Assembly (NCBI RefSeq): GCF_002939305.1
Contig: NZ_MVDI01000006.1
Location: 1 to 64,000 of the forward strand
Direction: 5' to 3'
Length of the DNA stretch: 64,000 nt
Source: Chroococcidiopsis sp. TS-821
GTDB lineage: Bacteria; Cyanobacteriota; Cyanobacteriia; Cyanobacteriales; Chroococcidiopsidaceae
Position numbers and translations under genes: made by a program. The notes under the pieces are model-generated. The model ran no database searches. It saw only the letters and a program-made list of their open reading frames with translations, and had not been told where the DNA came from. Of the stretch, positions 10,393-61,821 are shown one piece after another. Position 1 is the stretch's first letter. Every line of letters starts with the position of its first letter.

Positions 10393-10422
10393 GCTTTTTT
10401 CTCATCATTTATAATCAGCAAG

Positions 10423-11214: not shown

Positions 11215-11271
11215 GATGATCTCACAAAAAACTCAAAAAAATTCTATTTTTGTTTGGGTTTTAAAATGTTG

Positions 11272-11798: not shown

Positions 11799-11832
11799 AC
11801 CGACTACACCATCCTCTAGTGTTCTTTCTTCT

Positions 11833-11864: not shown

Positions 11865-11902
11865 GGGGCGTTGCAGGGCAATTGTCACTGAACAAACATC
11901 GC

Positions 11903-12874: not shown

Positions 12875-12886
12875 CGAGAAATCCTC

Positions 12887-12985: not shown

Positions 12986-13010
12986 TTCCTCCTGCTTTCG
13001 TCCGTTTCAT

Positions 13011-39500: not shown

Positions 39501-39733
39501 TCACAGATAACGACAGTTCAATGGCACTCTAAAATCTTTGGTTTAACCGTTGCGTGTCTTCTAGCTGCATGTAGGGCAATAGTCTGGCTTGCATGCTGCA
39601 CTACGTCGATTGCGTTTTGCACGTAGTTGCATTGGCGGCTTACTCGGTTGCGCGTAATGGAGATTGCGCGTACCTTGTGTGCCCACATTTTTCGTATGTC
39701 AAGGCTGCTCATGTTTTGATTGGGGTTCAACTG

Positions 39734-41017: not shown

Positions 41018-41077
41018 ACATCTTAATTTGTGCTTTAAGAGAATTCAAGCTACTACAAATTGAGCTAAAAGAAAGAT

Positions 41078-41932: not shown

Positions 41933-41980
41933 TTAAGTGGTTGAAATTAGGTCTCAACCGCCAAATTGAGGTTGTCAAAA

Positions 41981-43138: not shown

Positions 43139-43193
43139 TACGCAATGGCTAACTTATCAATTGGTGACATTTGTATAAGCAGGGAGAAGTTTA

Positions 43194-44685: not shown

Positions 44686-44800
44686 ATCATCATCTGTTAG
44701 GTAAGATGCTTAAGTCTTTTTGAACGAGACTTAAATGTTATTTCTCGGACTAATTTTTGCGTTCAATTTAAAAATTTCAATGTAATTTTTGGAGGATAAA

Positions 44801-45889
44801 ATGGCTTATCACGGTGATATTTCTTCAAGCGAGGATGCAGTTGGAGTTGCTGTAGTCAATTACAAGATGCCACGTCTTCATACGAGAGAAGAGGTGATCG
44901 AAAATTGTAAGAACATTTCAACAATGATTGATGGTCTTAAGCTTGGTTTGCCAGGTATGGATCTAGTCATTTTTCCTGAATACTCGACTCACGGTATCAT
45001 GTATGACTTCAAAGAAATGATGGAGACGGCATCGAGTATTCCTGGATCTGAAACAGATATTTTTGCTGAAGCTTGCGTACGTAACAAGGTTTGGGGTGTA
45101 TTTTCAATTACTGGAGAAAAACACGAGGATCATCCTGATAAAGTTCCTTACAACACGTTGATCTTAATAAATGACAAGGGCGAGATTGTACAAAAGTACC
45201 GTAAAATCATGCCTTGGTGTCCTATTGAAGGTTGGTATCCTGGTGGATGTACTTATGTTTCAGAAGGTCCCAAAGGACTTAAGATGAGCTTGATCATCTG
45301 CGATGATGGTAACTATCCTGAGATTTGGCGCGATTGCGCGATGAAGGGCGCTGAATTAATCGTACGCTGCCAAGGTTATATGTATCCTGCTAAAGAGCAG
45401 CAAGTTATGGTATCTAAGGCAATGGCGTGGATGAATAATACTTACGTAGCTGTTGCTAATGCCTCTGGTTTTGATGGAGTGTATAGCTACTTCGGACATT
45501 CGGCAGTTATTGGATTTGATGGTCGTACTCTCGGCGAATGTGGTGAAGAAGAAAATGGGGTGCAATATGCAGCACTCTCGAAGTTTGCGATTCGCGACTT
45601 CCGCAAGAATGCTCAGTCTCAAAACCATCTGTTCAAGCTGTTGCATCGCGGCTACACGGGCACTATTAACTCTGGCGACGGCTCTGATGGAATGCTTGAG
45701 TGCCCGTACGAGTTCTATCGAGATTGGGTACTCAATCCGCGCAAGGCAAAAGAAAATGTAGAAAATATTACCCGTCCAACTGTAGGAACGCCTGAGTGTC
45801 CTATTGAAGGACTGCCAACGCAAAAAATTAGTAGTACTCCTGTAGAAAAACCTCAAACATCTCCAGTGTCAGTCCCAGCTAAATCTTAG
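44801..45889 (+). CDS. amiE: Aliphatic amidase
   Basis: 362 residues of the nitrilase superfamily that hydrolyse short amides (acetamide, propionamide) to acid and ammonium. Glu, Lys, Cys triad: [29 protein letters not shown] and [15 protein letters not shown]. From memory the sequence matches Pseudomonas AmiE for most of its length ([20 protein letters not shown]) and is less like formamidase AmiF. TTGGAGGATAAA precedes ATG 44801. A Ser/Pro-rich tail of about 25 residues is extra. Its place between an uptake system and urease indicates breakdown of imported amides for nitrogen. A hairpin follows. Confidence 0.95.
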
Positions 45890-45903
45890 TTTTTTAGTTG
45901 AAG

Positions 45904-45950
45904 TTAGACTTCCCTATTTTCAAGTTATATAAAATCACAGGGAAGTCTAA
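45904..45950. terminator. 12-bp stem hairpin after the amidase
   Basis: TTAGACTTCCCT (45904-45915) and AGGGAAGTCTAA (45939-45950) form a perfect 12-bp stem around 23 AT-rich bases. It lies 15 bp after the amidase stop. There is no strong T run, so ureA may be reached by read-through or from its own promoter. Confidence 0.6.
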
Positions 45951-46094
45951 TACTTGCGAGATACATCAACTATTACTTGAAGGTAGAGCGTTGTGAGATT
46001 CTAGGCTAGAGAAATAAGAAGATTATCTTCTTTGCCTAGTAATACACCCTAGCCGTACAATAAGTCGCGGTTTCCTCACGTTACTTTTTACGCT

Positions 46095-46228
46095 CTCAGT
46101 ACTTGCTTGTCACGAAGCAATTCGGTGCAGCATCGCAAGCTGATGGAATTTGGCAGCAAGGTTGGTATAACGAGCCGCCAACGACTGATTTGAGAGCAGC
46201 GAGACGAGTGTACAGATGGGGATGACAA
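46095..46228 (-). pseudogene. Possible C-terminal remnant of a transposase
   Basis: The minus strand is open here and ends ARYTNLAAKFHQLAMLHRIA then a stop, which resembles the tail of IS5-type transposases. No start, no catalytic residues and no inverted repeats are visible. It fills the 350-bp gap between the amidase and ureA, so the urease genes may have been joined to the amidase block by an insertion event. Confidence 0.3.
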
Positions 46229-46266
46229 CGTAAAAGAGCTACTTGCTAGTTAGCAGGATGCGATCT

Positions 46267-46593
46267 ATGTATTTAACACCAAGAGAACTCGAACGTTTGA
46301 CTATTTTCACTGCTGCTGAAATTGCGCGGCGGCGGAAGGAGCGAGGAATTAAGCTAAATGTTCCAGAAGCGATCGCTTACATTACAGACTACATCGTAGA
46401 AGGAGCAAGAGAAGATAAATCTGTTGCACAACTGATGTCAGAAGGAGCTAGTTTGCTAAGTGTAGATGACGTTTTGCCTGGTGCCGCAGAGTTGATTCCA
46501 TTAATTCAAGTAGAAGCTCATTTTTTAGACGGGACAAAATTAGTCAGCATTCACAATCCAATTCGCCCTGTAGAGGTACGCGAGGTACATTGA
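46267..46593 (+). CDS. ureA: Urease gamma subunit
   Basis: 108 residues. [38 protein letters not shown] and [20 protein letters not shown] are the conserved blocks. ATG 46267 (MYLTPRE) matches the usual N-terminus; AGCAGG lies 9 bases before it. Upstream in-frame codons from 46243 have no counterpart. Its stop overlaps the ureB start (TGATG). Confidence 0.95.
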
Positions 46594-46979
46594 TGGTAGA
46601 AAACAAACAACTAATTCCTGGTGAAGTTCTCTGCGCATCCGAACCTATTTCTCTCAACGCAGGTCGCATTGCCAAAACAATTACGGTGACTAACATTGGC
46701 GATCGCCCTATCCAAGTTGGCTCTCACTATCATTTTTTTGAAGTCAACCGAGCGTTGAAATTTGACCGTGCAGAAGCTCTTGGCTTTCGATTAGATATTC
46801 CAGCAGGTACTGCTGTTCGCTTTGAACCAGGAGATTCTAAGTCAATTACTTTGGTTGCAATCGGTGGCAGTCGGTTCATTCGCGGACTCAATAGTTTAGT
46901 CAATGGCGCGTTGGATGCTACTGAAACGACAAACAAGGCATTAGAGCAATTACAAGTAATGGGGTTTGGCGACAAGTAG
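46593..46979 (+). CDS. ureB: Urease beta subunit
   Basis: 128 residues. [38 protein letters not shown] and [13 protein letters not shown] are diagnostic. The start ATG overlaps the ureA stop by one base. Fourteen bases separate its stop region from ureC. A subunit of the nickel-dependent urease holoenzyme. Confidence 0.95.
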
Positions 46980-46992
46980 TAGGAGTGCGTGT

Positions 46993-48699
46993 ATGGAAAT
47001 CAGTCGCGAACGCTATGCAGAATTGTTTGGACCTACTGTAGGCGATCGCATTCGCTTAGGGGATACTTCTTTAGTTGTAGAAGTAGAACGAGATACTACT
47101 GTTTATGGCGATGAGTGCGTTTTTGGGGGAGGTAAAACACTACGAGATGGTCTAGGAATGGCAGCCGGTGTAACAGCTAGCGAAGGCGCATTAGACCTTG
47201 TAGTTACAAATGTAGTATTGATCGATCCTGTTCAAGGAATTGTTAAAACGGATGTTGGTATCAAAAACGGCAAGATTGCTGGTATTGGTAAAGCAGGAAA
47301 TCCAAGCATCATGGACGGCGTGTGTCCAGATTTAATTGTCAGTGCTAATACGGATGTACGCGCTGGAGAAGGTTTAATTGCTACGCCAGGTGGAATTGAT
47401 TGTCACGTTCATTTTGACAGTGCTGGACTATGTGCAGAAGCACTTTCAAGTGGTGTAACAACAATGTTGGGTGGTGGGTTAGGTCCAGTAACGGTTGGAA
47501 TTTGCTCTAGTGGCGCTCGCAATCTGGGAATTATGCTGCAAGCTGCTGAAGGATTTCCAGTTAACTTTGGTTTTTTGGGGAAAGGCAGTTCAAGTCTTCC
47601 TGAAAGCTTAGTTGAGCAAATTGAAAACGGAGCTTACGGACTGAAAATTCACGAAGACTGGGGTGCAATGCCAGCAGTGATTGATACCTGCTTGTCAGTG
47701 GCAGACAATTATGATTTCCAAGTACAACTGCACACAGATACGCTCAACGAGTCAGGATACGTAGAAGATACTTTGGCAGCGATTGCTAAACGTACAATCC
47801 ATATGTATCATGCTGAGGGTGCAGGAGGTGGACACGCACCTGACATAATCAAAGTAGCTGGTTACTCCCACTGTCTTCCATCTTCTACTAATCCAACTAA
47901 TCCCTATACTGTTAATACATTTGACGAACATTTGGATATGGTGATGGTTTGTCATCACTTAAATCCTAAAGTGCCAGAAGATGTAGCATTTGCTGAATCG
48001 CGAATTCGGGCTGAAACGATTGCTGCTGAGGATATTTTGCACGATATAGGTGCAATTAGTATGCTAGGTTCAGACAGCCAAGGTATGGGTCGGATTGGAG
48101 AAGTGATTTGCCGCACTTGGCAGCTTGCTTCCAAAATGAAGGATCAGAGAGGCATACTAGCAGAAGATAATGAGCGCAACGATAATCATAGAATTCTTCG
48201 ATACTTAGCTAAATACACGATTAATGTTGCTAAAACTTGCGGTATTGATAGCTATGTCGGTTCTATCGAGCCTGGCAAGATAGCCGACCTTGTTCTTTGG
48301 AAACCTGGTTTTTTTGGCATTAAGCCTGAAACAGTTATTAAAGGCGGTTTTATTGCTTGGGCGGCAATGGGCGAATCAAATGCATCTCTAATGACTTGCG
48401 AGCCTATCTTGTACCGTCCCCAGTGGAGTAGCTTTGGTACGGCGTGTCAAGCAACTTCTGTCGGATTCGTAACTCAAGCGGCGCTAGAAAAAAACTTACC
48501 TGAGCGATTAGGTTTGCGAAAGCAACTTCTTCCTGTACGCGGAACGCGATCGCTTTCTAAAGCGGATATGGTACGCAATACTGCTTGTCCGGAAATTGAA
48601 GTCGACCCTGATACATTTCAAGTCAGAGTTAACGGCGAGTTGGCAACTTGCGAACCTGTTTCCAAAGTTCCGCTAGGTCGGTTATACATTTTTAGATAG
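46993..48699 (+). CDS. ureC: Urease alpha (catalytic) subunit
   Basis: 568 residues, normal length. Nickel ligands are visible: [10 protein letters not shown] (two His), [10 protein letters not shown] (the carbamylated Lys), [23 protein letters not shown], and [13 protein letters not shown] (Asp). VCHHLNP carries the flap Cys and catalytic His. ATG 46993 is preceded by AGGAGTGCGTGT and matches the family start [15 protein letters not shown]; a longer open frame to 46966 is within ureB. Hydrolyses urea to ammonium and carbonate in the cytoplasm. Confidence 0.97.
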
Positions 48700-48700
48700 C

Positions 48701-49354
48701 ATGGAAAGCATGATGAACCACACAGCAGCACGAGTTGGAGTGGGAGGTCCAGTTGGTAGTGGCAAAACAGCATTACTGGAATGTTTAATACCAGTACTTA
48801 TGCAACGTGGAATTGAAGTTGCCGTAGTAACAAATGATCTCTTAACTCAAGAAGATGCCAAGCGACTCAAGCATAAAGGATTTCTACCAGCAGAACGCAT
48901 TATTGGAGTAGAAACAGGTAGTTGTCCTCATACAGCAATTCGCGAAGATCCAACGATGAATTTGCTTGCCGTTAGCGACTTAGAGCGCTTATATCCTCAG
49001 TTAGATTTAGTATTTATAGAAAGCGGTGGCGATAATCTTGCATCGACTTTCAGTTATGACTTAGTAGATGCATACATTTTTGTGATCGATGTAGGTGCAG
49101 GAGATGATATTCCTCGAAAAAATGGTCCAGGCTTTATCCAAGCCGACTTGGCTGTGATTAATAAAATTGATATCGCACCTTACGTTGGAGCAGATTTAAA
49201 TTTAATTCGCAAAGAAGCAGGGGAACGTCGCAGCCAAAACCGGATTGCTTACACCAACTGTAAAACTGGTGAAGGATTGGGCGATGTTATTGATTTTATT
49301 GAAGAAACGGTTCTATTTCGCCAGTCATGTAAGAACATATCGGTAGAAGTTTGA
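48701..49354 (+). CDS. ureG: Urease accessory GTPase
   Basis: 217 residues. GVGGPVGSGKTALLE is the P-loop, VVTNDLLTQEDA and GVETGSCPHTAIREDPTMN (the CPH nickel site) are conserved, FIESGGDNLASTFS is Walker B-like and INKIDIAPYVGADL the guanine motif. ATGs at 48701, 48713 and 48716 are all possible starts. Powers nickel delivery to apo-urease. Here it follows ureC directly, not ureF as in many operons. Confidence 0.95.
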   Translation: MESMMNHTAARVGVGGPVGSGKTALLECLIPVLMQRGIEVAVVTNDLLTQEDAKRLKHKGFLPAERIIGVETGSCPHTAIREDPTMNLLAVSDLERLYPQLDLVFIESGGDNLASTFSYDLVDAYIFVIDVGAGDDIPRKNGPGFIQADLAVINKIDIAPYVGADLNLIRKEAGERRSQNRIAYTNCKTGEGLGDVIDFIEETVLFRQSCKNISVEV

Positions 49355-49355
49355 T

Positions 49356-50270
49356 ATGGTTGCAAGCAATTCTGGCACACAACTTGTAGCTAGCGGTTCA
49401 GCTTCTTTTGGATTAAAACATCCTCAAGTACAGGTGGAGAAATATAATCTTTACTTGCGTTTGTGCTGCGATCGCGACCAACAAACGTTTGTTGCGCATC
49501 AGTATGCGACGTATCCGTTCCGCCTTTCACGTACATTTCGTCTCGATAAATCAAGTTCCAGTCGAGCTTATTTGTATTTGATGAATGTATCCCCAGGGTT
49601 ACTTGCTGGCGATAGATTGCACATTGGCATACAAGTGGAGGCAAATGCTCGTGCTTACTTGACGGATCAATCAGCAACAAAAGTACATAGTATGCCAGTA
49701 TTTGGCTCGATTGCTAGAACAAGTTATAACATTAAAGTCGGTGCAAAAGCTATTCTAGAGTTAGTTCCAGAACCTTTAATTCTCTATAAAGAAGCAAGTT
49801 TTGAACAGTTTACAGAAGTATCACTTCATTCTACAAGCCAGTTGTTTTTGAGCGAAATTATTGTTCCTGGAAGACTTGCGAGAGCAGAATACTATAAATT
49901 CAATTGTTATCTTAGTCGGTTGCGAGTTTTATCAATAGAAGGAGAGTTAATTTTTGGCGATGCTATGCGGTTAAATGGAAATTTAAATACTTTTAAAGAT
50001 AGTTTTTTCTTTTTAAAGTTTCCTGTTATTGCAAATGTTGTAGTTGTACTGCCAAATACTGAGTTAAGTAGTTTGGTGAAAAAAATAGATGTTCTACAAG
50101 AGTACTCTTCAAAATTAATTTTAGGATATTCTCATCTACCGAACTGTAACGGTTTATTAGTCCGAATTATGGGAATTAATATTAGTAGTGTCAAAATATG
50201 CATTCAGCACATACTTAGCTACGTACGTCAAATTAGCAATCAACCACATTTACCAGAAGTTCCTAAATGA
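49356..50270 (+). CDS. ureD: Urease accessory protein UreD
   Basis: 304 residues. YPFRLSRTFRLD, YLYLMNVSPGLLAGDRLHI and ATKVHSMP (normally TKvh/y) are the UreD/UreH signature; GRLARAEYYKF is conserved further on. Binds apo-urease and with UreF and UreG forms the activation complex. Starts one base after the ureG stop codon region and overlaps ureE by 4 bp. Confidence 0.9.
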   Translation: MVASNSGTQLVASGSASFGLKHPQVQVEKYNLYLRLCCDRDQQTFVAHQYATYPFRLSRTFRLDKSSSSRAYLYLMNVSPGLLAGDRLHIGIQVEANARAYLTDQSATKVHSMPVFGSIARTSYNIKVGAKAILELVPEPLILYKEASFEQFTEVSLHSTSQLFLSEIIVPGRLARAEYYKFNCYLSRLRVLSIEGELIFGDAMRLNGNLNTFKDSFFFLKFPVIANVVVVLPNTELSSLVKKIDVLQEYSSKLILGYSHLPNCNGLLVRIMGINISSVKICIQHILSYVRQISNQPHLPEVPK

Positions 50271-50794
50271 GTACGATTGACCTTGCTTACACTTACCTTG
50301 GTAACTACATAAACAACCAAGAGCTACAACAAAAAATAGAAGCTGCACGAGCAGCAAGGCGCTGCTTAGACATAGAACTTGGGCAAGACGATCAAGCCAA
50401 GAGTAGAATTTATACAAAATCTACATCTAATGTTCCTATCGGAATTATTAAGAAGCGGGGATGGATGCTAAGTGAGGGAGACGTATTTAAAACACAGCAA
50501 GGAAATTTATTAATTATACATCTCAAAGCTTGTGAGTTAATGGTACTTAGTTTTTCAAATGAGCAGTCAGGATATGCGCTTCCACTAATTCATTTGGGGC
50601 ACACTTTGGGAAATCATCATTATCCTATTTTTGTTACTCAAGATAAAATTTACATCCAATTAGTTGCAGATAAAGATATTATCGAGAAAACCATTCAGAA
50701 ATTTAATATTCCTGGATTAAAGGTGACATATGAAACTCAATCCTTTGAGCATTATTTAAAATTGACAAGTAATATGCATTTCCATTCTCATTAA
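50267..50794 (+). CDS. ureE: Urease nickel chaperone UreE
   Basis: 175 residues. The N-terminal domain is followed by a metal-binding domain, with ALPLIHLGHTLGNHHYPIFV holding the conserved His of GNxHxP. The C-terminus ends MHFHSH, a short His tail. The N-terminal 45 residues (YLGNYINNQELQQKIEAARAA) are longer and more charged than usual. Coupled to ureD by a 4-bp ATGA overlap. Confidence 0.88.
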   Translation: MSTIDLAYTYLGNYINNQELQQKIEAARAARRCLDIELGQDDQAKSRIYTKSTSNVPIGIIKKRGWMLSEGDVFKTQQGNLLIIHLKACELMVLSFSNEQSGYALPLIHLGHTLGNHHYPIFVTQDKIYIQLVADKDIIEKTIQKFNIPGLKVTYETQSFEHYLKLTSNMHFHSH

Positions 50795-50850
50795 GAGTAA
50801 AGCGATTTCATCCATGAATAGTTTTACTTTTTCAATCAATAATATTTGCT

Positions 50851-51552
50851 ATGAGCCAGAACTTAAGTTTAGATCGACGATTAGCTTTAATGCAATTAGC
50901 TGATTCTTTTTTTCCATCAGGTTCGTTTACTCTATCTCATGGCTTAGAAGTACTAGTTCATACTAAGCAAGTTCAATCGATAGATGACTTTCAAAACTTT
51001 CTTAGGTTACTACTACACAACAAAATAGGTTCGGCTGATTTAATTGCTTTAGTACACGCTTATCGAGCAAGTGAGCAAAATAATGTAGCAGAGGTTCGTA
51101 ACGTTGACCTTAAACTTTTTGCTCAAACACCGATTCAGGAGATTAGAGAAGCTCAACGCAGAAGTGGTAAAGCGCTGTTAAGTGTAGCTTGTTCAACTTG
51201 GGACGACCCTCAGTTGCAAGCGATTCGTGCTTATACTGAAACAGGATACACACCTTGTCTTCATCCAATTATCTTCGCTATAGTAGGTCGGGCTGCAAAT
51301 TTAACGGAGGACGATACTATATTTGCCTTTCTGCACAATTTTTTGACAGGTTTATGTGGTGCTGCTATTCGTTTAGGCGTTTTGGGGCATCTCAAAGCTC
51401 AATTCGTTATCAAAGAAATAGCGGTTGATTTACAAGCAATAGCTCATCAAGCATCTTTATCTGATTTAAACGAAATGCAGTCTTGTGCGCCTTTTATTGA
51501 TATTGCCCAGATGACGCACAAACAACTTTCTCAAAGGTTATTTAGCAATTAA
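50851..51552 (+). CDS. ureF: Urease accessory protein UreF
   Basis: 233 residues, all helical. MQLADSFFPSGSFTLSHGLE is the UreF signature; FLTGLCGAAIRLGVLGH near residue 170 is conserved. Last gene of the urease set (A B C G D E F). Its stop is one base from the stop of the convergent gene at 51554, leaving no room for a separate terminator. Confidence 0.93.
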   Translation: MSQNLSLDRRLALMQLADSFFPSGSFTLSHGLEVLVHTKQVQSIDDFQNFLRLLLHNKIGSADLIALVHAYRASEQNNVAEVRNVDLKLFAQTPIQEIREAQRRSGKALLSVACSTWDDPQLQAIRAYTETGYTPCLHPIIFAIVGRAANLTEDDTIFAFLHNFLTGLCGAAIRLGVLGHLKAQFVIKEIAVDLQAIAHQASLSDLNEMQSCAPFIDIAQMTHKQLSQRLFSN

Positions 51553-51553
51553 C

Positions 51554-52522
51554 TCACTTTATAGTATCGTTATTGAGTCTTGGAGATATTATAAACTGTT
51601 CAAGCTTGTTGGGTTTACTCGTAAGCAGACCTGCTTCAATCTCAGATAGCACCTTAAGTTTCATCTGCTCTAAATCTCGGAATACTGCGGCAGCATCCTC
51701 GCTATTAAACTTGTAATACTCGGTGAGACTGCCAATTTTATAGTTGAAGTTCTTGTAGCGATATTTGAAATACTTTTCTACATTTCCGCGATGCTGCCAA
51801 GTGCCGAGAACTTCAATTGTTATAGACTTGAAGTGCTGCTTTAAGTCGCGCTGTATCTCCACTAGCCGTTGTTCTATTGAACGCTGCGTGACTCCAATTT
51901 TGTGTAATGTATCACCATCTGCCTTAATTTGTAAGTAGTACAAAGTTTGTCGTAGAATTTTTTGATACTGAGCGCAGTAGATTTTGTAATCTATGAGGCG
52001 TTCGGGAAAGAACAAGCTGGAATTAGAGGCGAGTTCGGCTTTTTGTTTTAGATTAAATAGCTTTTCTAGTAACAACGGTTCTTGTACGTAATTGAACAGT
52101 TCTAGAGGAAGTGCAGCTACTGGAATTTGCCCTAAACGAGTAAATTGATACTCTAGGGTAGAGGATTCTACCATTTGCAATAGACCGTGCCAGATGAATT
52201 GCTTGGGAACAGCAAAATGGGGAATACTACATTTCTTAACTCCGTATTCTCGCCAAAGCACTTTTAATTTTTCTAGTTCTTCCCCAGACAAGCGGATACT
52301 GAAATCGTCATATAAAGGTAATGTTGGTAGTTCTCGGTTTTTGCTCACTACCATAAACTGACAGGATTTATCAGTGTGTGCGAAGTGATGTTGCTTAATT
52401 CGTCCTTTCTTTGCGGTTAGCTGACCTCCGCAGTAGGGGCAGATCAGTTGAGTTTTGCCGCTGGGAACATCTTCTATGTCCACTAAAACGTTGTTTGCAT
52501 CGACACCATACCTCAGCCACAT
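51554..52522 (-). CDS. CoiA-like zinc/nuclease protein with GIY-YIG-type domain
   Basis: 322 residues. The N-terminus has ICPYCGGQL and KQHHFAH, as in competence protein CoiA and related nucleases (zinc hook plus HFAH motif). The C-terminal half, LYYLQIKADGDTLHKIGVTQ and RSIEQRLVEIQRDLKQHF, resembles the T5orf172/GIY-YIG nuclease group (YLxxx--KIGxT---RL). Similar fusions are frequent on cyanobacterial plasmids. Probable DNA-processing role; the target is unknown. Confidence 0.65.
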   Translation of the reverse strand: MWLRYGVDANNVLVDIEDVPSGKTQLICPYCGGQLTAKKGRIKQHHFAHTDKSCQFMVVSKNRELPTLPLYDDFSIRLSGEELEKLKVLWREYGVKKCSIPHFAVPKQFIWHGLLQMVESSTLEYQFTRLGQIPVAALPLELFNYVQEPLLLEKLFNLKQKAELASNSSLFFPERLIDYKIYCAQYQKILRQTLYYLQIKADGDTLHKIGVTQRSIEQRLVEIQRDLKQHFKSITIEVLGTWQHRGNVEKYFKYRYKNFNYKIGSLTEYYKFNSEDAAAVFRDLEQMKLKVLSEIEAGLLTSKPNKLEQFIISPRLNNDTIK

Positions 52523-53599: not shown

Positions 53600-54322
53600 A
53601 TGGTACAGCATCGAATTGCGGTAGCAGCTAGAAAGGGGGGTGTGGGCAAAACTACAGTTGCTTGTGGTTTAGCATCGGTCTTCGCCCACTTAGGACATCG
53701 CGTTCTTGTAGTAGATTTAGATCCGCAGTCTAATGCAGGATACGTGTTGGGAATTGACCCTACTGCCCCAGGTACTGCTGAATTATTGTCTGGAATTTTA
53801 CCAACGCCTTTAGAAGCAGCTTCAGGGTTGTATATTTTACCAGGTGGACCTAAGCTAACAGGACACAATATTCAAGCATCAGACCCAGAGGATTTAGCAG
53901 ATGCAGTTGCGTCGTTAGATTATGACGTGTTGATTTTCGATTGTCCTCCTGGTGTTGAGTACCTAGAACGCTTGGGCTTAGTTGCTGCTGACGTAGCGCT
54001 GGTTTGCACTGATGCGCATCCGCTTGCGGTTGTTGGTGCGGGTCGCGTGTTGAATGAGTTGAGTTTGCGGCAGAAAAAAGGACGCAAGGGAGCCTCGCGA
54101 TGGGCTTTAGTGCTGAGCAAAATTGACTTACGCCGTTCGATGGATCAGGCGTTAGACCAGCAATTAGCCAAAACTTATCCGTCGCTCAAACGCCTGACTG
54201 TTCGCCAAGACGCGGCTTTGGCGTGGGCGGGTGCTGAAAGGATGCCGCTAATGCAGTACGACCCTAACTCTAAAGGGGCGAAAGATTTACAAGTTGTAGC
54301 AGAGTGGGTGTTAAATGGCTAG
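53600..54322 (+). CDS. parA: Plasmid partition ATPase ParA
   Basis: 240 residues of the Soj/ParA type Ib size. AARKGGVGKTTVA is the deviant Walker A (KGGVGKT), LVVDLDPQSNAG the A' motif, and LIFDCPPG Walker B. No N-terminal HTH, so it does not autoregulate by itself. Stop overlaps parB start by 8 bp. No obvious ribosome site precedes ATG 53600. It marks the window as part of a replicon with active segregation. Confidence 0.95.
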   Translation: MVQHRIAVAARKGGVGKTTVACGLASVFAHLGHRVLVVDLDPQSNAGYVLGIDPTAPGTAELLSGILPTPLEAASGLYILPGGPKLTGHNIQASDPEDLADAVASLDYDVLIFDCPPGVEYLERLGLVAADVALVCTDAHPLAVVGAGRVLNELSLRQKKGRKGASRWALVLSKIDLRRSMDQALDQQLAKTYPSLKRLTVRQDAALAWAGAERMPLMQYDPNSKGAKDLQVVAEWVLNG

Positions 54323-55127
54323 ACCTCGAAAACGCGCTGATAGTGCATCGGTGTTAGAGCAGGCAACGATTGTGGCTGATGCAATCCACGAGCAAGACCA
54401 GGAAGCTGCTTCGCAGTCTGAAGCCGATCGCATTCAACGCATTAATTTGCCTTTGTCTCGAATCAGCCCCAGAGCAGAAGATACCCGTCCATTACGCGAC
54501 TCCCATGTCAAAGACTTGGCAGAATCAATTGGCGCTTTGGGGTTGATTGAACCGTTAGTAGTAGACACAAAAGGTATTTTGCTAGCTGGCGGACATCGAT
54601 TAGCTGCAATTCAACTGCTTAAGGAAACTAATCCTGAACTTTATCAGCAACAGTTTCCTGACGACCTCATCCCTGTACGAGTCATGCCGTTTGATGCTGA
54701 AGCCGAACCAGAGCGATCGCTTCAGGTAGAGTTAGCAGAGAACGAGAAGCGAGTTAATTATTCGCGCGACCAAATTGAGCAATTAGCAGAGCGGCTGCGA
54801 TCGCTTAACTATCGAGATATCCCTGGTCGTCCCAAAGCAGGAGAAAAAGCGCTGGGTCCGGCTCTTGCTGTAGCGATTGGCGTATCTGCTCGATACGTGC
54901 GCAGGGTTCTTGCCGAGCAAACTGACCAGTACAAAAATACTAGGAACTCAGTTCCTAATTTATCGAAACTCAAGGCACTGCGGAAGATTGAAGCAGCATT
55001 AGAGGAATTAATTAGCTTGCCTGAGTCAGAGCAACCAACGCGTGCAGAGCAGAGTTTGTACAAAGCTATTCCGACTTTCTTAAAGAAGGTGAAGGCTAGT
55101 CTTGAGCAAGAAAGTAAGAGGCACTAA
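54315..55127 (+). CDS. parB: Partition protein ParB
   Basis: 270 residues. LPLSRISPRAEDTRPLRDSH (start of the CTPase domain), LIEPLVVDTKGILLAGGHRL (GGHR motif), VELAENEKRVNYS and an HTH around AVAIGVSARYVRRVLAE. An N-terminal extension of about 45 residues and a charged C-terminal helix are present. Overlaps parA by 8 bp. No classical TGTTTCACGTGAAACA parS is seen nearby; the palindrome at 55216 is one candidate. Confidence 0.93.
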   Translation: MARPRKRADSASVLEQATIVADAIHEQDQEAASQSEADRIQRINLPLSRISPRAEDTRPLRDSHVKDLAESIGALGLIEPLVVDTKGILLAGGHRLAAIQLLKETNPELYQQQFPDDLIPVRVMPFDAEAEPERSLQVELAENEKRVNYSRDQIEQLAERLRSLNYRDIPGRPKAGEKALGPALAVAIGVSARYVRRVLAEQTDQYKNTRNSVPNLSKLKALRKIEAALEELISLPESEQPTRAEQSLYKAIPTFLKKVKASLEQESKRH

Positions 55128-55243: not shown

Positions 55244-55510
55244 ATGAATCATTCAACAACTCACCGCGAGGTTCCGCGACGGTTAGCCGTGTTGATTTTG
55301 TCTCAAGAGCGGGGACGAAGTCCTGAATGTCCGCTCGATCCGAGTTTAATCAGCAAGTGGTGTGCCGACCTTGGCTTTGAACTAGGGTTGCGGTATTTCA
55401 CCGAAGACCAGTTTCAGCAGCTGAGGGTTGTCAATCAACACTACGCTTCTGGCGGAACCCGAAGGGAACTTTTGCAGAAACTAAGGAAGATCCAAAATGG
55501 TAACGCTTGA
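55244..55510 (+). CDS. Small protein of unknown function in the par operon
   Basis: 88 residues. RRLAVLILSQERGRSP, SLISKWCADLGFELG and YFTEDQFQQLRVVNQHYASG suggest an all-helical, possibly HTH-like fold. Family not recognised. It overlaps the next gene by 14 bp and follows parB by 116 bp, so it belongs to the same transcript. Confidence 0.65.
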   Translation: MNHSTTHREVPRRLAVLILSQERGRSPECPLDPSLISKWCADLGFELGLRYFTEDQFQQLRVVNQHYASGGTRRELLQKLRKIQNGNA

Positions 55511-56036
55511 AGATTTGATGCAACATGGCAGCCGCCGTAAAGTTGAAGCTATTGCCGCCAAGATGGGCTACCCCAAAGGGACAACTCAATTTCCTGATGA
55601 AGTTTTGGAGGAGGTCAAGAACCAGTGCAGCAAGAAGCGCTCGGTTAGCGCCAAAGCTGCTGATGCGGCGGAAGACGAGGCAGCGAATACAGCTGAGGCT
55701 GATTTAAAAAGCATTGAAGTTGCCGCAGAAAATCGCGCTGCCGGAATGTTGGTAGCACTCGATACACTAACTATGGTTAAGTGTGCTACTCGCAAGTTTT
55801 CTGATTCTCATCTTCAGCAAGCAGTAGATGAATCGCAGGGAAGGCTGCGGCAGTTCCTCAGTGGTGTAGCGACAGTGTATGACCCTGAAGCTTTTTTAGC
55901 CCAAACCCCCCTAGCCTTGGAAGCAGCTGGGGAGAGTGGTTCGATGCGATCGCTTCCAGCCAACAGCAACTTGTCGCCGAGTACCGAAAAAGAAGTCAAG
56001 CCAGAACCAGGGCGCAAATCCTCATCGGCACGTTGA
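55497..56036 (+). CDS. Unknown protein, possibly frameshifted with a TM tail
   Basis: 179 residues as read: helical N-terminus (VTLEDLMQHGSRRKVEAIAAKM), a middle rich in Ala/Glu, then a tail of low complexity (SMRSLPANSNLSP to SSSAR). Another frame of the same strand, entered near the AAACCCCCC run at 55904-55912, reads much more like protein: WGEWFDAIASSQQQLVAEYR, then RTRAQILIGTLIATAVLGLYL (a membrane helix), stopping at 56126-56128 inside the next gene. A one-base indel in the homopolymer would explain this, and the true product would then be a membrane-anchored protein of about 209 residues. Function unknown. Confidence 0.55.
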   Translation: MVTLEDLMQHGSRRKVEAIAAKMGYPKGTTQFPDEVLEEVKNQCSKKRSVSAKAADAAEDEAANTAEADLKSIEVAAENRAAGMLVALDTLTMVKCATRKFSDSHLQQAVDESQGRLRQFLSGVATVYDPEAFLAQTPLALEAAGESGSMRSLPANSNLSPSTEKEVKPEPGRKSSSAR

Positions 56037-56093: not shown

Positions 56094-57032
56094 ATGGGCA
56101 TCAAGCAACATCGACGCAGACTCGCTAGCGGTGAGGAGCGGATTTATATTTATGAGGTTAGCGACGAGCAGCGGCGGAGTGTAGGAGTTGTCACGAGTTC
56201 CAGTTCCGATTCCGTTTCACCACCCTTCTATAGAGTCGAAGAAAAAAATCGCATTGTTGCTGCACTGCAAGCTGATTCTAGTTTGCTCGTTATCGGCGAA
56301 CCTGGTTGCGGGAAAACAACTTTATTAGATAGCGTTGCTGTCGCTTTGGCTGAAGTTGGGTTTCCTTTAGCAACAATTAATCCGGCTACTCCAAAGCAAA
56401 TCTTACTCTCAATTGCCTCTCAGCTTGGTGCTGAAACCGAATCAATAGAGGGTAAGGCGTTAGCGGTAACAGGGTTGATGGAGGCGATCGCTGATTTTTT
56501 GAGCGAGAACACGGCTTTTCTACTCATCGATGATGCCCATCGTTTATCGGTCTCAATTCGCTGTTGGCTGGAGGAACTGCACAATGGCGGTCAGCCGATG
56601 CTACTAGCTGCTTCGCGTCCGCCTGCTAAAGACATTTTTCTCAAACTACCTCGAATTGAATTACAACCTTTGTCGCACCGCCAAATTCGGGAGATCATGG
56701 AGCAAGCTGCCAGAGAATTGGGGATAGAACTATCTGCTGCGCAGCTAGCACAGCTACAGCAAAGATGTGGTGGAAATCCGATGCTGGCTAAGCGAGTGGT
56801 TAGGGAAGAGTATTTAGGGTTGGAGGAAAGTAGTCCAGACCACACGCAGTGGGTTGACGGTACTCCGTTTCTGATTGCTGGATTAATGGTTTTTACAATT
56901 GTTAGATTTATTGGTTTAGGGCTAAATAGCACTTCACTCTACCTTATTGGCGGACTAGTTGATGTCACAGTGGGAATTGTGCGCTTACTATTGTTTAGCT
57001 TGCCTAAAAAGTCGGTGAGGTTAGGACGGTGA
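56094..57032 (+). CDS. Membrane-anchored AAA ATPase
   Basis: 312 residues. Walker A VIGEPGCGKTTLL (68-80), Walker B AFLLIDDAH, and a helical lid (ELQPLSHRQIREIMEQAA). This resembles TniB/ExeA/Cdc6-type AAA proteins that move DNA or peptidoglycan machines. Two C-terminal membrane helices (FLIAGLMVFTIVRFIGLGL and LYLIGGLVDVTVGIVRLLLF) are unusual for the class and would hold it at the membrane. The next gene starts on GTG, overlapping by 4 bp. Confidence 0.8.
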   Translation: MGIKQHRRRLASGEERIYIYEVSDEQRRSVGVVTSSSSDSVSPPFYRVEEKNRIVAALQADSSLLVIGEPGCGKTTLLDSVAVALAEVGFPLATINPATPKQILLSIASQLGAETESIEGKALAVTGLMEAIADFLSENTAFLLIDDAHRLSVSIRCWLEELHNGGQPMLLAASRPPAKDIFLKLPRIELQPLSHRQIREIMEQAARELGIELSAAQLAQLQQRCGGNPMLAKRVVREEYLGLEESSPDHTQWVDGTPFLIAGLMVFTIVRFIGLGLNSTSLYLIGGLVDVTVGIVRLLLFSLPKKSVRLGR

Positions 57033-58075
57033 AAAGTATTACACACGCACTTTTTGCTACTACTGCGACTTCGCTAGTTTTGGGAACGGCTGAACCTACA
57101 CTGTTACTGACAGGTGCTTTAGCTTCTCAGTTGCCAGACGTAGATACCTCGAAGAGCATCCCAGGACGCATTTTGTTACCACTGTCATCGTGGTTAGAGA
57201 AACGATATCCACACCGCACGATTACTCACAGTTTCTTAGCAACAGGGGCGATCGCGCTTGTTACTTTACCTATTGCCTTCGTTGCGATCAAGTTATGGCA
57301 GGCTTTAGTGTTAGGTTATTTTTGCGGTTGGTTTGCAGATGTTTTTACTAAATCAGGCGTAGCAGCATTTTATCCATCAGCAGCGCGACTCGTGATTCCA
57401 GGTAATCCGCAGTTGCGGTTATCAACGGGCAGCAATGCTGAATATTTTGTCATGGCGGTGCTAATTCTAGTAGCGATCGCTAGCATAAGCATTAACAGCA
57501 ATGGCGGTATTTTAAGAACTTTTAACTCGACACTAGGTATTCCGTCAGGTGCTGTTGAAATTGTTAATACCGAAGGGTCGCAGTATTTACTAATGGCTCA
57601 AGTATACGGTCGTTGGGCGATCGCTCAGCAGTCAGTCAATGAAAAGTTTGAAGTCGTGCGACCGCTGACGCAAACAGATTTGTTGCTAAAGAATGCTTCA
57701 GGCACTCTTTACAGAGTTGGTAGTTCGCAGAATTGTCAGATTATTGCTAGCCGAATTTTAGTTGAACGCAGCCGCCCTATTAAATTACAAGTACAAGAAC
57801 TGCAATTAACAGATGAAGTTATTGCTGAAGTTTTGGCACAGTATCAAAGTTTTACGAGCGAGCGAACTTATATCAATGGCACTTTAGCTGTTGAAGATGC
57901 TGAAGATTTAGTCATACCGACTCATGCAGATTCCTTCGATACGATTACTTTGCAACAGCAACGCGAAGTGGGAGTCGTGCGGTTAGAGTCAGCAAGTCCT
58001 GCGGAAGTTCTCAGCTTGCTTGGCGATTACTACGCATCTGGCAGTTTGATTATTCGGAAAGTTGAGGTATTGTGA
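57029..58075 (+). CDS. YdjM-like membrane-bound metal hydrolase
   Basis: 348 residues, GTG start. The first 170 residues match the YdjM/DUF457 family: SITHALFATT, SQLPDVDTSKS and YPHRTITHSFLA provide the His and Asp metal ligands between membrane helices. The following 180 residues (from about 175) are a soluble extension with no known family. The family is sometimes described as LexA-induced or phospholipase-like, but the activity is uncertain. Overlaps neighbours by 4 bp and 1 bp. Confidence 0.82.
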   Translation: MKSITHALFATTATSLVLGTAEPTLLLTGALASQLPDVDTSKSIPGRILLPLSSWLEKRYPHRTITHSFLATGAIALVTLPIAFVAIKLWQALVLGYFCGWFADVFTKSGVAAFYPSAARLVIPGNPQLRLSTGSNAEYFVMAVLILVAIASISINSNGGILRTFNSTLGIPSGAVEIVNTEGSQYLLMAQVYGRWAIAQQSVNEKFEVVRPLTQTDLLLKNASGTLYRVGSSQNCQIIASRILVERSRPIKLQVQELQLTDEVIAEVLAQYQSFTSERTYINGTLAVEDAEDLVIPTHADSFDTITLQQQREVGVVRLESASPAEVLSLLGDYYASGSLIIRKVEVL

Positions 58076-59181
58076 TGTTTCAAAAAAAAGCCAAGCCATT
58101 GCCAGAGCCAGTACTAAAAGTAGTTCGCCATGCACCAACAGCATCGCCAACGGTAACTTCATCTGGCATTCAGTTAGGAGAAAATATTTACTGGAATCCT
58201 GAACTTTTACCTAATGCTCATATCGCGATTATTGGTGCTAGCGGTTCGGGGAAGACGCAAACCTTGAAGGCGATCGCGTATGAAGCTTCTAAAGTCTTCT
58301 CCCTGCAAATATTTATTGTGGACTTTCACGGCGACCAGCAACTAGAGGGGGAGGTTTGCTACCACCTAGATATGGAATCGCCGCACGGCATTAATCCTTT
58401 AACTATTGATAAAGATACCAAGGGTGGTGGACCAGCACTGCAAGCAATCGCTGTCGCAGCAATTTTGAAAAAAGCCTTGTCGATGGGACCTAATCAGGAA
58501 GGATTGGTGATTGAGGTTCTAAATAGCTGTTACACAGCGCGAGGCATCGTTCAATCAGATCCCAAAAGCTGGGAGCAAGAACCCCCAACATTTGCTGAGC
58601 TAAAAGCTGAAGTCGAGCAACGTATCGAAGAGGGTTGTAAAGAAAGTCAGAAGTTGCTTCTGAAGCTGGCAGCAACGTTTCAATATGGTATTTTTAACCG
58701 TCCTCAGCCACCGCTTAATGCACCAATTATCCGGTTTGACTTATCCGCACTTGGCAAAGTTCCAGGTTTAGGCGCGATTGCTGCTGAATCTTTGGCGAAA
58801 CAGCTAATGGATAGTCATCGACTGCATGGCGAAATCGAGGGCAAAATTCCTCGTACATTTCTCTTCATCGACGAAGCCAAGGAGATGTCAAAGTCGTTGA
58901 TGTGCGATCGCATTACGGCTGATGGCAGAAAGTACGGCTTAGCTTTAGTTCTTGCGTCCCAATCAGAGCGACACATGAGTTCTGATGTTATTGGTAATTC
59001 TGCTACGAAGATTGTGTTACCTGTAGACCAAGCGGAGGTCAAATCAATTGCTAAAAAATTTCGCTTTGCTGAAGAGAGAGTAGCGCGACTTTCTCCTTTA
59101 CAAGCACTGTGTAGATTCGGTAAAGATGCAATGGAGGTTGATATAGTACCTTATTTTCAGCGCTTGGAGGGTGAGAAATGA
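58075..59181 (+). CDS. HerA/TraC-type ATPase
   Basis: 368 residues. Walker A IIGASGSGKTQTLK (about 53-66), IFIVDFHGDQQ, Walker B RTFLFIDEAKEM, and the arginine/sensor region LALVLASQSERHMSSDVIGN are typical of HerA/FtsK/VirB4-like hexameric ATPases (DUF87 group). Such enzymes pump DNA or drive secretion. ATG 58075 overlaps the preceding stop; a GTG at 58072 is an alternative. It sits between a membrane hydrolase and an HlyD-like adaptor, so it may be the motor of a trans-envelope complex. Confidence 0.85.
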   Translation: MFQKKAKPLPEPVLKVVRHAPTASPTVTSSGIQLGENIYWNPELLPNAHIAIIGASGSGKTQTLKAIAYEASKVFSLQIFIVDFHGDQQLEGEVCYHLDMESPHGINPLTIDKDTKGGGPALQAIAVAAILKKALSMGPNQEGLVIEVLNSCYTARGIVQSDPKSWEQEPPTFAELKAEVEQRIEEGCKESQKLLLKLAATFQYGIFNRPQPPLNAPIIRFDLSALGKVPGLGAIAAESLAKQLMDSHRLHGEIEGKIPRTFLFIDEAKEMSKSLMCDRITADGRKYGLALVLASQSERHMSSDVIGNSATKIVLPVDQAEVKSIAKKFRFAEERVARLSPLQALCRFGKDAMEVDIVPYFQRLEGEK

Positions 59182-60698
59182 ACGAAATTTCGATATTACC
59201 TCCTCTGGAAACTGCTAAAAAGCAACCTCACGCGCAGAGAACAGCAGAGGTATTTCGAGCTTTAGATGAAGCTCAAGCGCAGGGCATTACAACTTATGAT
59301 GCGCTAATTAATTATGTTCGACAAAAGACAGGCACGGGTTGTTCGCGGAAACTGATTAGTAAGTGGAAGAAAGAACGCGCTACTTCTGTAAAGAGCGAAT
59401 CTAATGTACAGAATCTGCTAGAGGAAACTGCGGTTACTGCTTTAGATAAAGAGGTTCAACCAGAAATACAGCAGCTTGAAACTAGTGATACAACAAATCA
59501 TCAATCGCTGGTAGATAACTTTAAGTTCATTAAACAGTTACAGTCAGTTCAATTGCGAAAAGTGCTGATTCCTATAGCGGCGATTAGTATGGGATTAACA
59601 TTGCTAGTGCAAGTGAAACCAACGTTGGGCGATCGCGTTACAACTAATACTCAAGCAACAACGCCTGTACCCGCACCGAGTAGCACCAATGTACCGCGAA
59701 CGTTGAAGTTTAGCTTATCAGTATCTAGTCCGGCGGATCTTAAAGTATCTAAAGGAGATACAGTAGAAGCGGGACAAGTGATAGCCGAACGAGTTGAACA
59801 GCGCGATCGCCTGCAAGCTGAACTTGATTCTTTAAATCTTCAGTACCAGCAGCTTCAATCTCGTATAATTCCCAAACCTGCCTCTCATGCTCCAGTGCCG
59901 TTGATTAAACAACTACCACCAATTTCCTATGCGGAGGAAGAAGCAGCAATTCAGGCAGCGGAAAGTAATTTAAGGCAAGCAGAACGCGCTTTCTCGTTAC
60001 AGCAGCAGAGTATGCGCTCTTCACCAATTGCTGAATCGAATGCTGTGCAACGCGCAGTTGTCGAGGTGGAGAACAAACAACGCCTTGTTGATAATCAGAA
60101 GCGGAAGCTTGATGCTGTAAGTACGCTAAAAGACTTGCCTGCTGCTGTACTCGAACACGAGCAGGAGGTATTGAAAGCGAAGGAAGCTGAACTCAAACAG
60201 GCTGTTGCTGACCAAGAACTTTTCACAGCTAAGTTAGAGGCAGCATCGCGCAATCAAGTTGAAAAGTTACAGCAGTTAGGTGCTGCTGTAGAAAAGGCAA
60301 GGGCAGATTTACAAGTCGCGATCGCCAAGCTGCAAACTAAAAAAGACATGAGAGCGCATCAAGAATACGAAGCATCGGTCGTTGCTGCAAGAAGGATAGA
60401 AGAGCGAAATGCAGCGCAGGACAGTCATTCGCGCAATTTATTAGCAGCCGAACAGCAGGAGCGCGATCGCCAATTTCAGCTAGCACAAATCAAAGCCAAA
60501 ATCGACAATGTTAATAGCCAACTTACAAATCTGTCAGTTGTTACTAGCCCGTATGATGGTGTCATCAAAGCAATCAAGTTCCGCAAGCAGTCTAACAATG
60601 ATTTGCACGTTGAGCTTACACTTAGCGTTGATGCTGCCACTACAACCAGCAGTAGCTCAGGGTCAGAGAGCGCAACTACAGCCCCAAACAGAGAGTAA
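59178..60698 (+). CDS. HlyD-like adaptor with cytoplasmic KfrA/HTH-like head
   Basis: 506 residues. Residues 20-70 (RTAEVFRALDEAQAQGITTYDAL to SRKLISKWKKER) look like the DNA-binding head of KfrA-type plasmid proteins. One membrane helix follows (127-146, KVLIPIAAISMGLTLLVQV). Then a split lipoyl motif (KVSKGDTVEAGQVIAERV at about 194-211 and SPYDGVIKAIKF near 458) flanks a coiled coil of about 240 residues, as in HlyD membrane fusion proteins. A DNA-binding head on a secretion adaptor is unusual and would physically tie DNA to an envelope channel. The HTH is inferred from pattern only. ATG overlaps the ATPase stop by 4 bp. Confidence 0.8.
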   Translation: MNEISILPPLETAKKQPHAQRTAEVFRALDEAQAQGITTYDALINYVRQKTGTGCSRKLISKWKKERATSVKSESNVQNLLEETAVTALDKEVQPEIQQLETSDTTNHQSLVDNFKFIKQLQSVQLRKVLIPIAAISMGLTLLVQVKPTLGDRVTTNTQATTPVPAPSSTNVPRTLKFSLSVSSPADLKVSKGDTVEAGQVIAERVEQRDRLQAELDSLNLQYQQLQSRIIPKPASHAPVPLIKQLPPISYAEEEAAIQAAESNLRQAERAFSLQQQSMRSSPIAESNAVQRAVVEVENKQRLVDNQKRKLDAVSTLKDLPAAVLEHEQEVLKAKEAELKQAVADQELFTAKLEAASRNQVEKLQQLGAAVEKARADLQVAIAKLQTKKDMRAHQEYEASVVAARRIEERNAAQDSHSRNLLAAEQQERDRQFQLAQIKAKIDNVNSQLTNLSVVTSPYDGVIKAIKFRKQSNNDLHVELTLSVDAATTTSSSSGSESATTAPNRE

Positions 60699-61548
60699 CT
60701 CTCAACCAACGGAGGTTCCTGAATTAGAAGCTGGGCAAGAGGAAATACCAGAACCTACTCAAAGTAATCCTTTAGAACCAGCAGGAACTGACATTGACGT
60801 GATTATCAAAACTCGGATTAACGATGATTTGTGGGAAGCGATGAAAGGTGACTTACCGTGCTTAATCGCGACTCGCGAGTGTATCTCTGAGTTACAAGCA
60901 ACGGCAACTGGGCGCAATCCTTTGCTATTGGAGATTGACGAGCGTATTGAAGAAATCAATGCCAAGATTGAACAAGCGAGGGCGAGTAATAAAAAATCTA
61001 TTCGGCTTAGTGTTCTTACGCCAGGATTGCAAGCGCTGCTTTCACCACAAGCAATTACTCAGAACGGAAAGACACGGACGACTGGGGGATTTTTATCAAA
61101 CATTCTTTCAATCTTTACTAATCCTGTAGGCATCGTTGATAAACTACTTTCTGCGGTTGGCGTACCCCTACTACAATCAGCATTTGGCGGTAACGAGCAA
61201 AATCAGAGAAATGCAATCGCTATTTCTGACCTTCAGGTAAAATCTGCTGAGTTACAACGAGGACGTGCCGAACTCGCACAAAAGATTCGCGAACAGGTGT
61301 ATTTGGCAGTGTTTGATTATGACGACGCAGCGCGTGAATTTCAGATTGCTCAAGAAGTAGCTAAACGCGATGCAGCTAGGATGCAGCTACTAGAAGTAGA
61401 ATATCGCTTTGGTGAAGGTAATACCAATAGTTATTTGAATAGCCTTAATAGCTTAGATGGAAGAAAAGCGCAAACTTACCGAGCATGGGCAACGCTGCGA
61501 TCGCGGCTTGAGAAGATTAAGTTGTTAGTGTTAGGGGTAGACGAGTAA
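60553..61548 (+). CDS. Exported TolC-like coiled-coil protein
   Basis: About 331 residues. An N-terminal hydrophobic export signal ends near PAVAQG. The C-terminal half (AELAQKIREQVYLAVFDYDD to EYRFGEGNTNSYLNSLNSLDG and RLEKIKLLVLG) has the helix-turn-helix pattern of outer membrane factors, in which YRFGEGN is the characteristic loop. Length is only one repeat, so a full TolC barrel is unlikely unless more subunits assemble. Start is uncertain: ATG 60553, 60556 or 60598, all within the end of the preceding gene (up to 146 bp overlap in another frame). Confidence 0.75.
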   Translation: MMVSSKQSSSASSLTMICTLSLHLALMLPLQPAVAQGQRAQLQPQTESNSQPTEVPELEAGQEEIPEPTQSNPLEPAGTDIDVIIKTRINDDLWEAMKGDLPCLIATRECISELQATATGRNPLLLEIDERIEEINAKIEQARASNKKSIRLSVLTPGLQALLSPQAITQNGKTRTTGGFLSNILSIFTNPVGIVDKLLSAVGVPLLQSAFGGNEQNQRNAIAISDLQVKSAELQRGRAELAQKIREQVYLAVFDYDDAAREFQIAQEVAKRDAARMQLLEVEYRFGEGNTNSYLNSLNSLDGRKAQTYRAWATLRSRLEKIKLLVLGVDE

Positions 61549-61554: not shown

Positions 61555-61821
61555 TTATGAGCAAACCCACCCCTCATTAAATTGCAATATGCTCAAAATA
61601 CTGCCAGCACTCAAGACGGATAGGATACTTCCAGCACTAAGGACGCTTAAAAGACAACCAGCGCTACCGATACTTAAAATACTGCCAGCACTACCAATAC
61701 TCAGGATACTGCCAACGCTACCAATACTTAGAATACTGCCAGCACTGCCAATACTTAGGATGCTACGATAACTCATCCAACTCAAAATACTGCGTTCTGA
61801 ATTAAGCCAGTTTTTACTCAT
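61555..61821 (-). CDS. SILSIGSAG-repeat protein
   Basis: 88 residues from ATG 61821 (TGGAG lies ahead). After MSKNWLNSERSILSWMSYR come six copies of a nine-residue unit SILSIGSAG (variants SILSIGSVG, CLLSVLSAG, SILSVLSAG), encoded by 27-bp DNA repeats. Regular Ser and Ile/Leu spacing suggests a solenoid or beta structure. Family is unknown to me, though similar Ser-Leu repeat proteins occur in actinobacteria and cyanobacteria. Convergent with the TolC-like gene, 7 bp apart. The same repeat also keeps the opposite strand open. Confidence 0.6.
   Translation of the reverse strand: MSKNWLNSERSILSWMSYRSILSIGSAGSILSIGSVGSILSIGSAGSILSIGSAGCLLSVLSAGSILSVLSAGSILSILQFNEGWVCS

Follow-up and report, generated by a model that had tools for sequence, protein, structure and literature searches.

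Periplasmic adaptors of the HlyD type, known from type I secretion and tripartite efflux, carry an N-terminal membrane anchor or are lipoproteins, and are built in the order half-lipoyl motif, alpha hairpin, half-lipoyl motif. Another class of machines moves DNA with motors of the FtsK-HerA superfamily. In Thermus, TdtA of the element ICETh1 is a hexameric FtsK-HerA ATPase of about 64 kDa that is needed for DNA donation (transjugation), in which the donor pushes DNA out, and motors of the HerA family can thus drive donation (PMC5365140). The archaeal Ced system of Sulfolobales, with its HerA/VirB4-type ATPase (CedB, CedD), works in import through a CedA channel and without a relaxase (PMC11868833). 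Type IV secretion (VirB4/VirD4, in cyanobacteria MPF_C) likewise uses an ATPase of this superfamily. On the current model, a 2021 survey judged 88% of 424 cyanobacterial plasmids likely to be immobile (PMC8600333). Plasmids also encode coiled-coil proteins of the KfrA type, in which a small N-terminal helix-turn-helix (HTH)-type head is followed by long helices.

The locus described here lies in a window of 64,000 nucleotides from Chroococcidiopsis sp. TS-821, the whole stretch of DNA that was analysed. The first-pass annotation had singled out one gene, at 59178-60698, and read its product as a secretion adaptor with a KfrA-like HTH head in the cytoplasm, one membrane helix and an HlyD-type periplasmic hairpin, a single protein that could touch both plasmid DNA and the outer envelope. 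The finding is larger than one protein. The adaptor is a subunit of a five-gene plasmid cassette, the fourth gene in an overlapping series that runs AAA ATPase, YdjM, HerA-like ATPase, adaptor and half-TolC. With its HerA-type DNA-motor ATPase and its TolC-like exit duct, the cassette is a conserved plasmid operon that has apparently gone undescribed; no earlier description was found in the literature searched, most subscription papers lying outside its scope. The features are as follows.

53600-54322, forward strand: ParA-type partition ATPase, upstream of the cassette (profile searches)
54315-55127, forward strand: ParB-like protein, upstream (weak PF02195 match)
55244-55510, forward strand: small conserved protein, upstream, overlapping the next gene (locus comparison)
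55497-56036, forward strand: conserved upstream protein (locus comparison)
56094-57032, forward strand: AAA_22 ATPase with two C-terminal membrane helices (profile; hydropathy)
57029-58075, forward strand: YdjM-type membrane protein with a C-terminal domain (PF04307, E 4.5e-22)
58072-59181, forward strand: HerA/DptH/CedD-like ATPase without a membrane helix, its stop overlapping the adaptor start (ATGA) (profile searches)
59178-60698, forward strand: HTH-headed, membrane-anchored HlyD-like adaptor of 506 residues (open reading frame, alignment, AlphaFold model)
59229-59384, forward strand: head domain of the adaptor, residues 18-69, three predicted helices with a conserved GxGCSRKLISKWK in helix 3 (alignment, model, dN/dS)
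59553-59615, forward strand: membrane helix, residues 126-146 (hydropathy)
59697-59789, forward strand: N-terminal half-lipoyl motif, residues 174-204 (PF00364 below threshold; alignment)
59790-60533, forward strand: long alpha hairpin, residues 205-452 (AlphaFold model; weak TIGR01843 match)
60534-60635, forward strand: C-terminal half-lipoyl motif SPYDGVIKAIKF, with P458 and G461 invariant (alignment)
60598-61548, forward strand: half-size TolC-like protein with a single OEP-type repeat and a signal peptide, MICTLSLHLALMLPLQPAVA-Q (profile search)

The half-TolC gene overlaps the 3' end of the adaptor gene by 101 bp, with 60553 as an alternative start. In the protein encoded at 55497-56036, a C-terminal stretch, AAGMLVALDTLTMV, resembles by eye the C-terminus of KfrA_N proteins found at the same place in Nostocales. 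Several other features mark the neighbourhood. Just past the cassette, at 61595-61793, are 27/54-bp tandem repeats that are open on both strands (Ser/Leu/Gly/Ile on the reverse, Leu/Pro/Ile on the forward). Just upstream of the ParA gene, a reverse-strand gene (51554-52522) joins a CoiA N-terminal domain to a T5orf172 (GIY-YIG-type) nuclease domain. An ABC-type periplasmic binding protein (Peripla_BP_5) followed by genes for the urease alpha subunit and UreF occupies 39593-51552 of this ParAB-bearing contig, and the reverse strand of 4886-15356 encodes an AcrB-type RND efflux pump, an HlyD/CusB-type adaptor and a heavy-metal P-type ATPase.

The adaptor gene is a single open frame, with its ATG at 59178 and its stop ending at 60698. 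In agreement with the first-pass annotation, the hydropathy profile has a single strong membrane segment at residues 126-146, and since the preceding flank, FKFIKQLQSVQLRK, is more positive than the following one, the N-terminus is predicted to be cytoplasmic, where the head had been placed. The HlyD-type periplasmic hairpin is borne out by the half-lipoyl motifs, by the modelled long hairpin and by sub-threshold matches to PF00364 and TIGR01843. The lipoyl half-motif falls at residues 187-204, and the TIGR01843 profile matches residues 187-395 with E 8e-4, far below its cut-off. In the AlphaFold model of the full-length protein, hairpin helices at residues 197-227 and 252-453 are flanked by short strand pairs; no beta-barrel domain follows the lipoyl half, and the roughly 20 residues beyond the last strands are unstructured. 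The AlphaFold models were based on two sequences only. A Foldseek search with the full-length adaptor returned mostly generic coiled coils, with HlyD (5c21) at rank 13 and EmrA (8zar) at rank 36, and PDB sequence searches with profiles of the head, the adaptor and the OEP protein gave no credible match. We hold with high confidence that the protein consists of a head, a flexible linker, one membrane helix and a half-lipoyl/hairpin/half-lipoyl unit.

The head is a conserved domain under strong purifying selection. Compared with Gloeocapsopsis crepidinum it is 87% identical with a dN/dS of 0.11, a ratio also found for the hairpin; constraint is weakest in the linker, at 0.56. In net charge the head is basic (+5), the linker acidic (-5). 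Its low dN/dS and the retention of the head-adaptor fusion in six loci rule out a frame error or a chance fusion. AlphaFold places helices at residues 18-34, 40-51 and 57-85 in the full-length protein (pLDDT about 82-89 across residues 20-60) and again predicts three helices when the head is folded alone (core pLDDT about 85-92). A fold search with the head gave TEAD4 as the best hit (Z 6.2), together with FadR (5.4) and LmrR (5.0), all below the level of a clear match. The closest solved chains are mostly DNA-binding and HTH- or homeodomain-like, including Rok and Mu transposase, but at Z of only 4-6, so an HTH fold is likely rather than proved; DNA binding by the head is probable.

At E 1 the head is not matched by the KfrA_N profile PF11740, which at E 0.01 matches nothing in the genome, and a profile-profile comparison (hhalign) of the head with cyanobacterial KfrA_N heads gave 21% probability (P 0.001). 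For the proposed KfrA-like HTH head, structure prediction makes a three-helix HTH-type fold likely, but membership of KfrA is rejected on the profile searches and hhalign. The head is an HTH-like domain that forms a small family of its own. A remote relation to KfrA is possible: two head proteins in other loci (L082, L083) run on into a KATGILI...Y.DNP stretch that resembles, by eye, the C-terminus of Nostocales KfrA proteins (KATGLLIVQEAMVTYFYQNP).

A plasmid search found adaptor relatives on 28 plasmids, the named ones all cyanobacterial, and 34 adaptor-bearing loci were profiled ORF by ORF. The AAA ATPase and YdjM genes are each present in 31 of the 34, the HerA-like gene in 27 and the OEP gene in 26, with all five in 21. 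Gene order and strand are nearly always constant, and the conserved cassette very probably acts as a functional unit. It occurs in laboratory strains, on pSYSX of Synechocystis PCC 6803 and in Synechococcus elongatus UTEX 3055, where the half-TolC gene is not annotated. Another carrier, pSYLC of Synechocystis PCC 6714 (L122, 41 kb), has no annotated Rep or ParA gene. HerA is not an obligatory core, since it is missing from some cassettes (L035, L043, L044, L098 and a Thermus plasmid). Viral contigs searched with HerA, OEP, adaptor and head queries held no close relatives, HerA having two distant matches only, and a viral origin was rejected.

The head is tied to the motor more closely than to the adaptor. 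It is fused to the adaptor in six loci (the window, L003, L031, L032, L080 and L081) and is a separate ORF in five others. In four of these (L090, L092, L094, L095) it overlaps the adaptor frame, and in L034 no adaptor gene follows it. In L082 and L083 another membrane helix connects it to a C-terminal domain resembling YdjM, and in Synechococcus elongatus (L084, L123) it forms the C-terminal end of a distinct protein whose gene immediately precedes the AAA gene. Whatever its fusion, it lies 3' of HerA in 11 of the 12 loci that have both, starting about 5-760 nt past the HerA stop; in L094 and L095 HerA is absent within the stretch read. Across 386 cyanobacterial genomes the HerA-like protein occurs in 17 and the head in 8, seven of which have both. 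The adaptor tree does not reject a single origin of the head fusion. Because the steady neighbour of the head is the HerA motor and not the adaptor, the head may be read as a DNA-recruiting or motor-docking part.

The HerA-like ATPase, of 369 residues, has a HerA-type core with Walker A and DEA motifs and belongs to the FtsK-HerA superfamily. Among solved structures it matches DptH (7es4) with E 3.7e-21, as well as HerA and TrwB, and its NCBIfam matches are to CedD (1.7e-13), CedB (3e-9) and VirB4 (1e-9), all below the family cut-offs. In three relatives a GIY-YIG domain that keeps the GIY, YIG, R and E motif residues is inserted in-frame near residue 184 (L003:7586-9001, L034:7586-9001 and L031:7226-8683); the window copy lacks it. 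An SNase domain extends four lipoprotein-type hairpin adaptors (L090:6963-8381, L092:7017-8528, L094 and L095), three of which match the catalytic motif pattern. No OEP gene lies beside these four, so SNase fusion and OEP may be alternatives, or the OEP gene may be elsewhere; in G006 a second adaptor-OEP pair lies at a distance of about 80 kb. In the vicinity of other cassettes there are eight separate SNase genes, almost all encoding a signal peptide, a lipobox or a hydrophobic N-terminus. Judging by the nuclease-bearing adaptors and HerA copies, the cassette probably handles DNA, and we consider DNA a reasonably likely substrate.

The half-TolC protein scores 16.0 bits against an OEP cut-off of 22 and has one repeat-sized OEP region, where genuine TolC proteins of the same genome have two. 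Comparison by hhalign of the OEP and adaptor alignments with single TolC- and CusB-type sequences gave no support (8-22%), so the TolC-like and adaptor readings depend on Pfam, PGAP names, motifs and the homologue from Thermus. Thermus plasmids of about 20 kb carry a reduced set, consisting of an AAA protein with membrane helices, a one-repeat OEP protein, a YdjM plus half-lipoyl-hairpin protein and an SNase; one such plasmid was read completely, and HerA is not annotated on it. Its OEP protein scores above the Pfam cut-off (E 1.4e-9, 38.5 bits), which supports the TolC-like reading of the cyanobacterial protein. With the OEP profile built from cyanobacteria the Thermus protein is not hit, so the link rests on a shared Pfam family and neighbourhood. 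On pTthSNM6-6d of Thermus thermophilus, YdjM and the half-lipoyl hairpin adaptor form one chain (L124:3818-5452), encoded near the one-repeat TolC-like gene, and this fusion supports the two acting together.

Our preferred, if tentative, reading is that the adaptor is the inner-membrane and periplasmic adaptor of a plasmid machine that moves DNA across the cyanobacterial envelope, with export as the likeliest direction. The head would bind plasmid DNA and keep it beside the HerA-like ATPase, whose gene stands immediately upstream and shares overlapping codons with that of the adaptor. The ATPase ring would drive the DNA into a conduit made of the AAA membrane protein, YdjM, the hairpin adaptor and the half-TolC, the last oligomerising within the outer membrane. 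DNA would then move outward, so that a plasmid could be transferred with neither a classical relaxase nor the core of a type IV secretion system. Export itself may be proposed with some reserve, for a periplasmic nuclease fits uptake or destruction of DNA at least as well.

The plasmids that carry the cassette for the most part have no recognised transfer genes. Nearly all those with adaptor relatives are typed non-mobilizable (27 of 28, and 61 of 62 in another carrier set). Since PF03432, the sole relaxase profile used, is found in one of 14 complete carrier plasmids and absent from the other 13, a relaxase is no fixed companion of the cassette. Across the genome of the window the cassette HerA is the one VirB4-type match, at 35 bits against a cut-off of 643, and a full-score VirB4 was found nowhere in that genome. 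The 270-kb contig of the window (C6) carries a MobA/VirD2-type relaxase at C6:225812-226192 (region 225312-226241) and a VirD4/TraG-type coupling protein at C6:213268-213624 (E 8e-28; region 212879-214849, L109), so this replicon may use a more ordinary mobilisation route. Between these two lie genes for a DNA polymerase A, an M23 peptidase and an AAA protein. The relaxase and coupling protein count against the preferred reading, as do the cassettes without HerA, the SNase-fused adaptors without an OEP gene and the moderate strength of the fold matches for the head.

Partition offers a different and rather improbable account, in which the head would recognise a site on the plasmid and fix it to the envelope, helping ParAB much as KfrA helps segregation, while HerA and the AAA protein work on plasmid DNA at the membrane without any export. 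ParA and ParB genes do lie directly upstream in the window and in L003, L034, L090, L031 and L042, and genuine KfrA_N genes stand just upstream of the cassette in Nostocales (Anabaena, Dolichospermum/G113, Cylindrospermopsis). The precedent of RA3, whose KfrA binds KorB and IncC and stabilises the plasmid (PMC7783346), also counts in its favour. Yet a half-TolC with a signal peptide, a hairpin adaptor in the periplasm and a periplasmic SNase are not needed for tethering, and several cassettes, such as those of pSYSX and pSYLC, have no adjoining ParAB.

Similarly improbable is that a single chain is synthesised and then cut at the membrane helix, which would act as a signal sequence, leaving the head free in the cytoplasm as an HTH regulator of the operon and the adaptor in the periplasm. 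Of the six fused relatives, three have a lipobox-like LVGC at the end of the membrane helix, where the head might be released by cleavage; the window protein and that of L003, however, have neither a lipobox cysteine nor a clear signal peptidase I site. Most headless relatives start with a lipobox or with a signal peptide that looks cleavable, and both the loosely constrained linker and the five separate head ORFs would suit cleavage, but the other membrane joining in L082 and L083 suggests that membrane placement is selected. The idea of one protein from plasmid DNA to the outer envelope is therefore only partly sustained: the head-adaptor fusion is unusual, but it is one of several arrangements, and half of the fused relatives bear LVGC. 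A continuous protein from cytoplasm to outer envelope is possible.

Envelope defence or exclusion, in which the cassette would capture and destroy incoming DNA in the periplasm and so protect the resident plasmid, is more doubtful still. Signal-bearing SNases and SNase-fused adaptors would fit, as would the kinship of HerA with antiphage HerA and with DptH/DndH, which are restriction proteins, but an outer-membrane exit duct is unexpected and the system would be a new type of defence; a known one was rejected, PADLOC finding shared ATPase folds only. A type I-like conduit powered by the AAA and HerA ATPases and exporting a plasmid-encoded protein is very improbable: the HlyD-like adaptor and TolC-like protein would suit it, but the cassette has no ABC, RND or MFS transporter and no conserved candidate cargo gene, and the SNases bear their own Sec signals.

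Each part of the cassette, which we tentatively regard as a DNA-transfer machine, is a known fold, and the combination misses the defining tests of type I secretion, type IV secretion and KfrA. With HlyD-type adaptors it shares the anchor, the half-lipoyl/hairpin/half-lipoyl order and an adjoining OEP-type gene; unlike them, its adaptor has no beta-barrel after the lipoyl half, gains a cytoplasmic head and is paired with a HerA-type ATPase in place of an ABC, RND or MFS partner. Classical type I secretion is ruled out by the lack of an ABC partner, the partners being AAA_22, YdjM, HerA-like and OEP-like proteins. KfrA-type proteins have a small HTH-type head such as is predicted here, long helices and a place near ParAB on plasmids, but the KfrA_N profile does not match here and the helices of the adaptor form a periplasmic hairpin past a membrane helix. 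As in type IV secretion, an FtsK-HerA superfamily ATPase would serve a two-membrane conduit on a plasmid, but the cassette lacks a full-score VirB4, no type IV scaffold gene was seen in it, and most complete carriers have no PF03432 relaxase. The Ced system supplies the best NCBIfam match and the precedent of working without a relaxase, but its hosts have no outer membrane and it has neither adaptor nor OEP. TdtA likewise is a HerA-like hexameric motor on a mobile element, but it is larger than the cassette ATPase and stands in its own operon with restriction-modification genes, where no adaptor/half-TolC cassette has been described. That the cassette is a wholly new class of plasmid DNA-transfer machine without relaxase or type IV core, in which a DNA-binding head tethered to the membrane loads a HerA motor that pumps DNA through YdjM, a hairpin adaptor of minimal form and a half-size TolC, on many "non-mobilizable" cyanobacterial plasmids and in reduced form on Thermus plasmids, seems unlikely, if worth entertaining. 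The cassette is a candidate variant of HerA-family DNA transfer with a candidate conduit identified. It is a concrete candidate for the missing transfer machinery of cyanobacterial plasmids, most of which have no recognised transfer genes, and it could point to the path across the envelope that DNA takes in Thermus-type donation driven by HerA.
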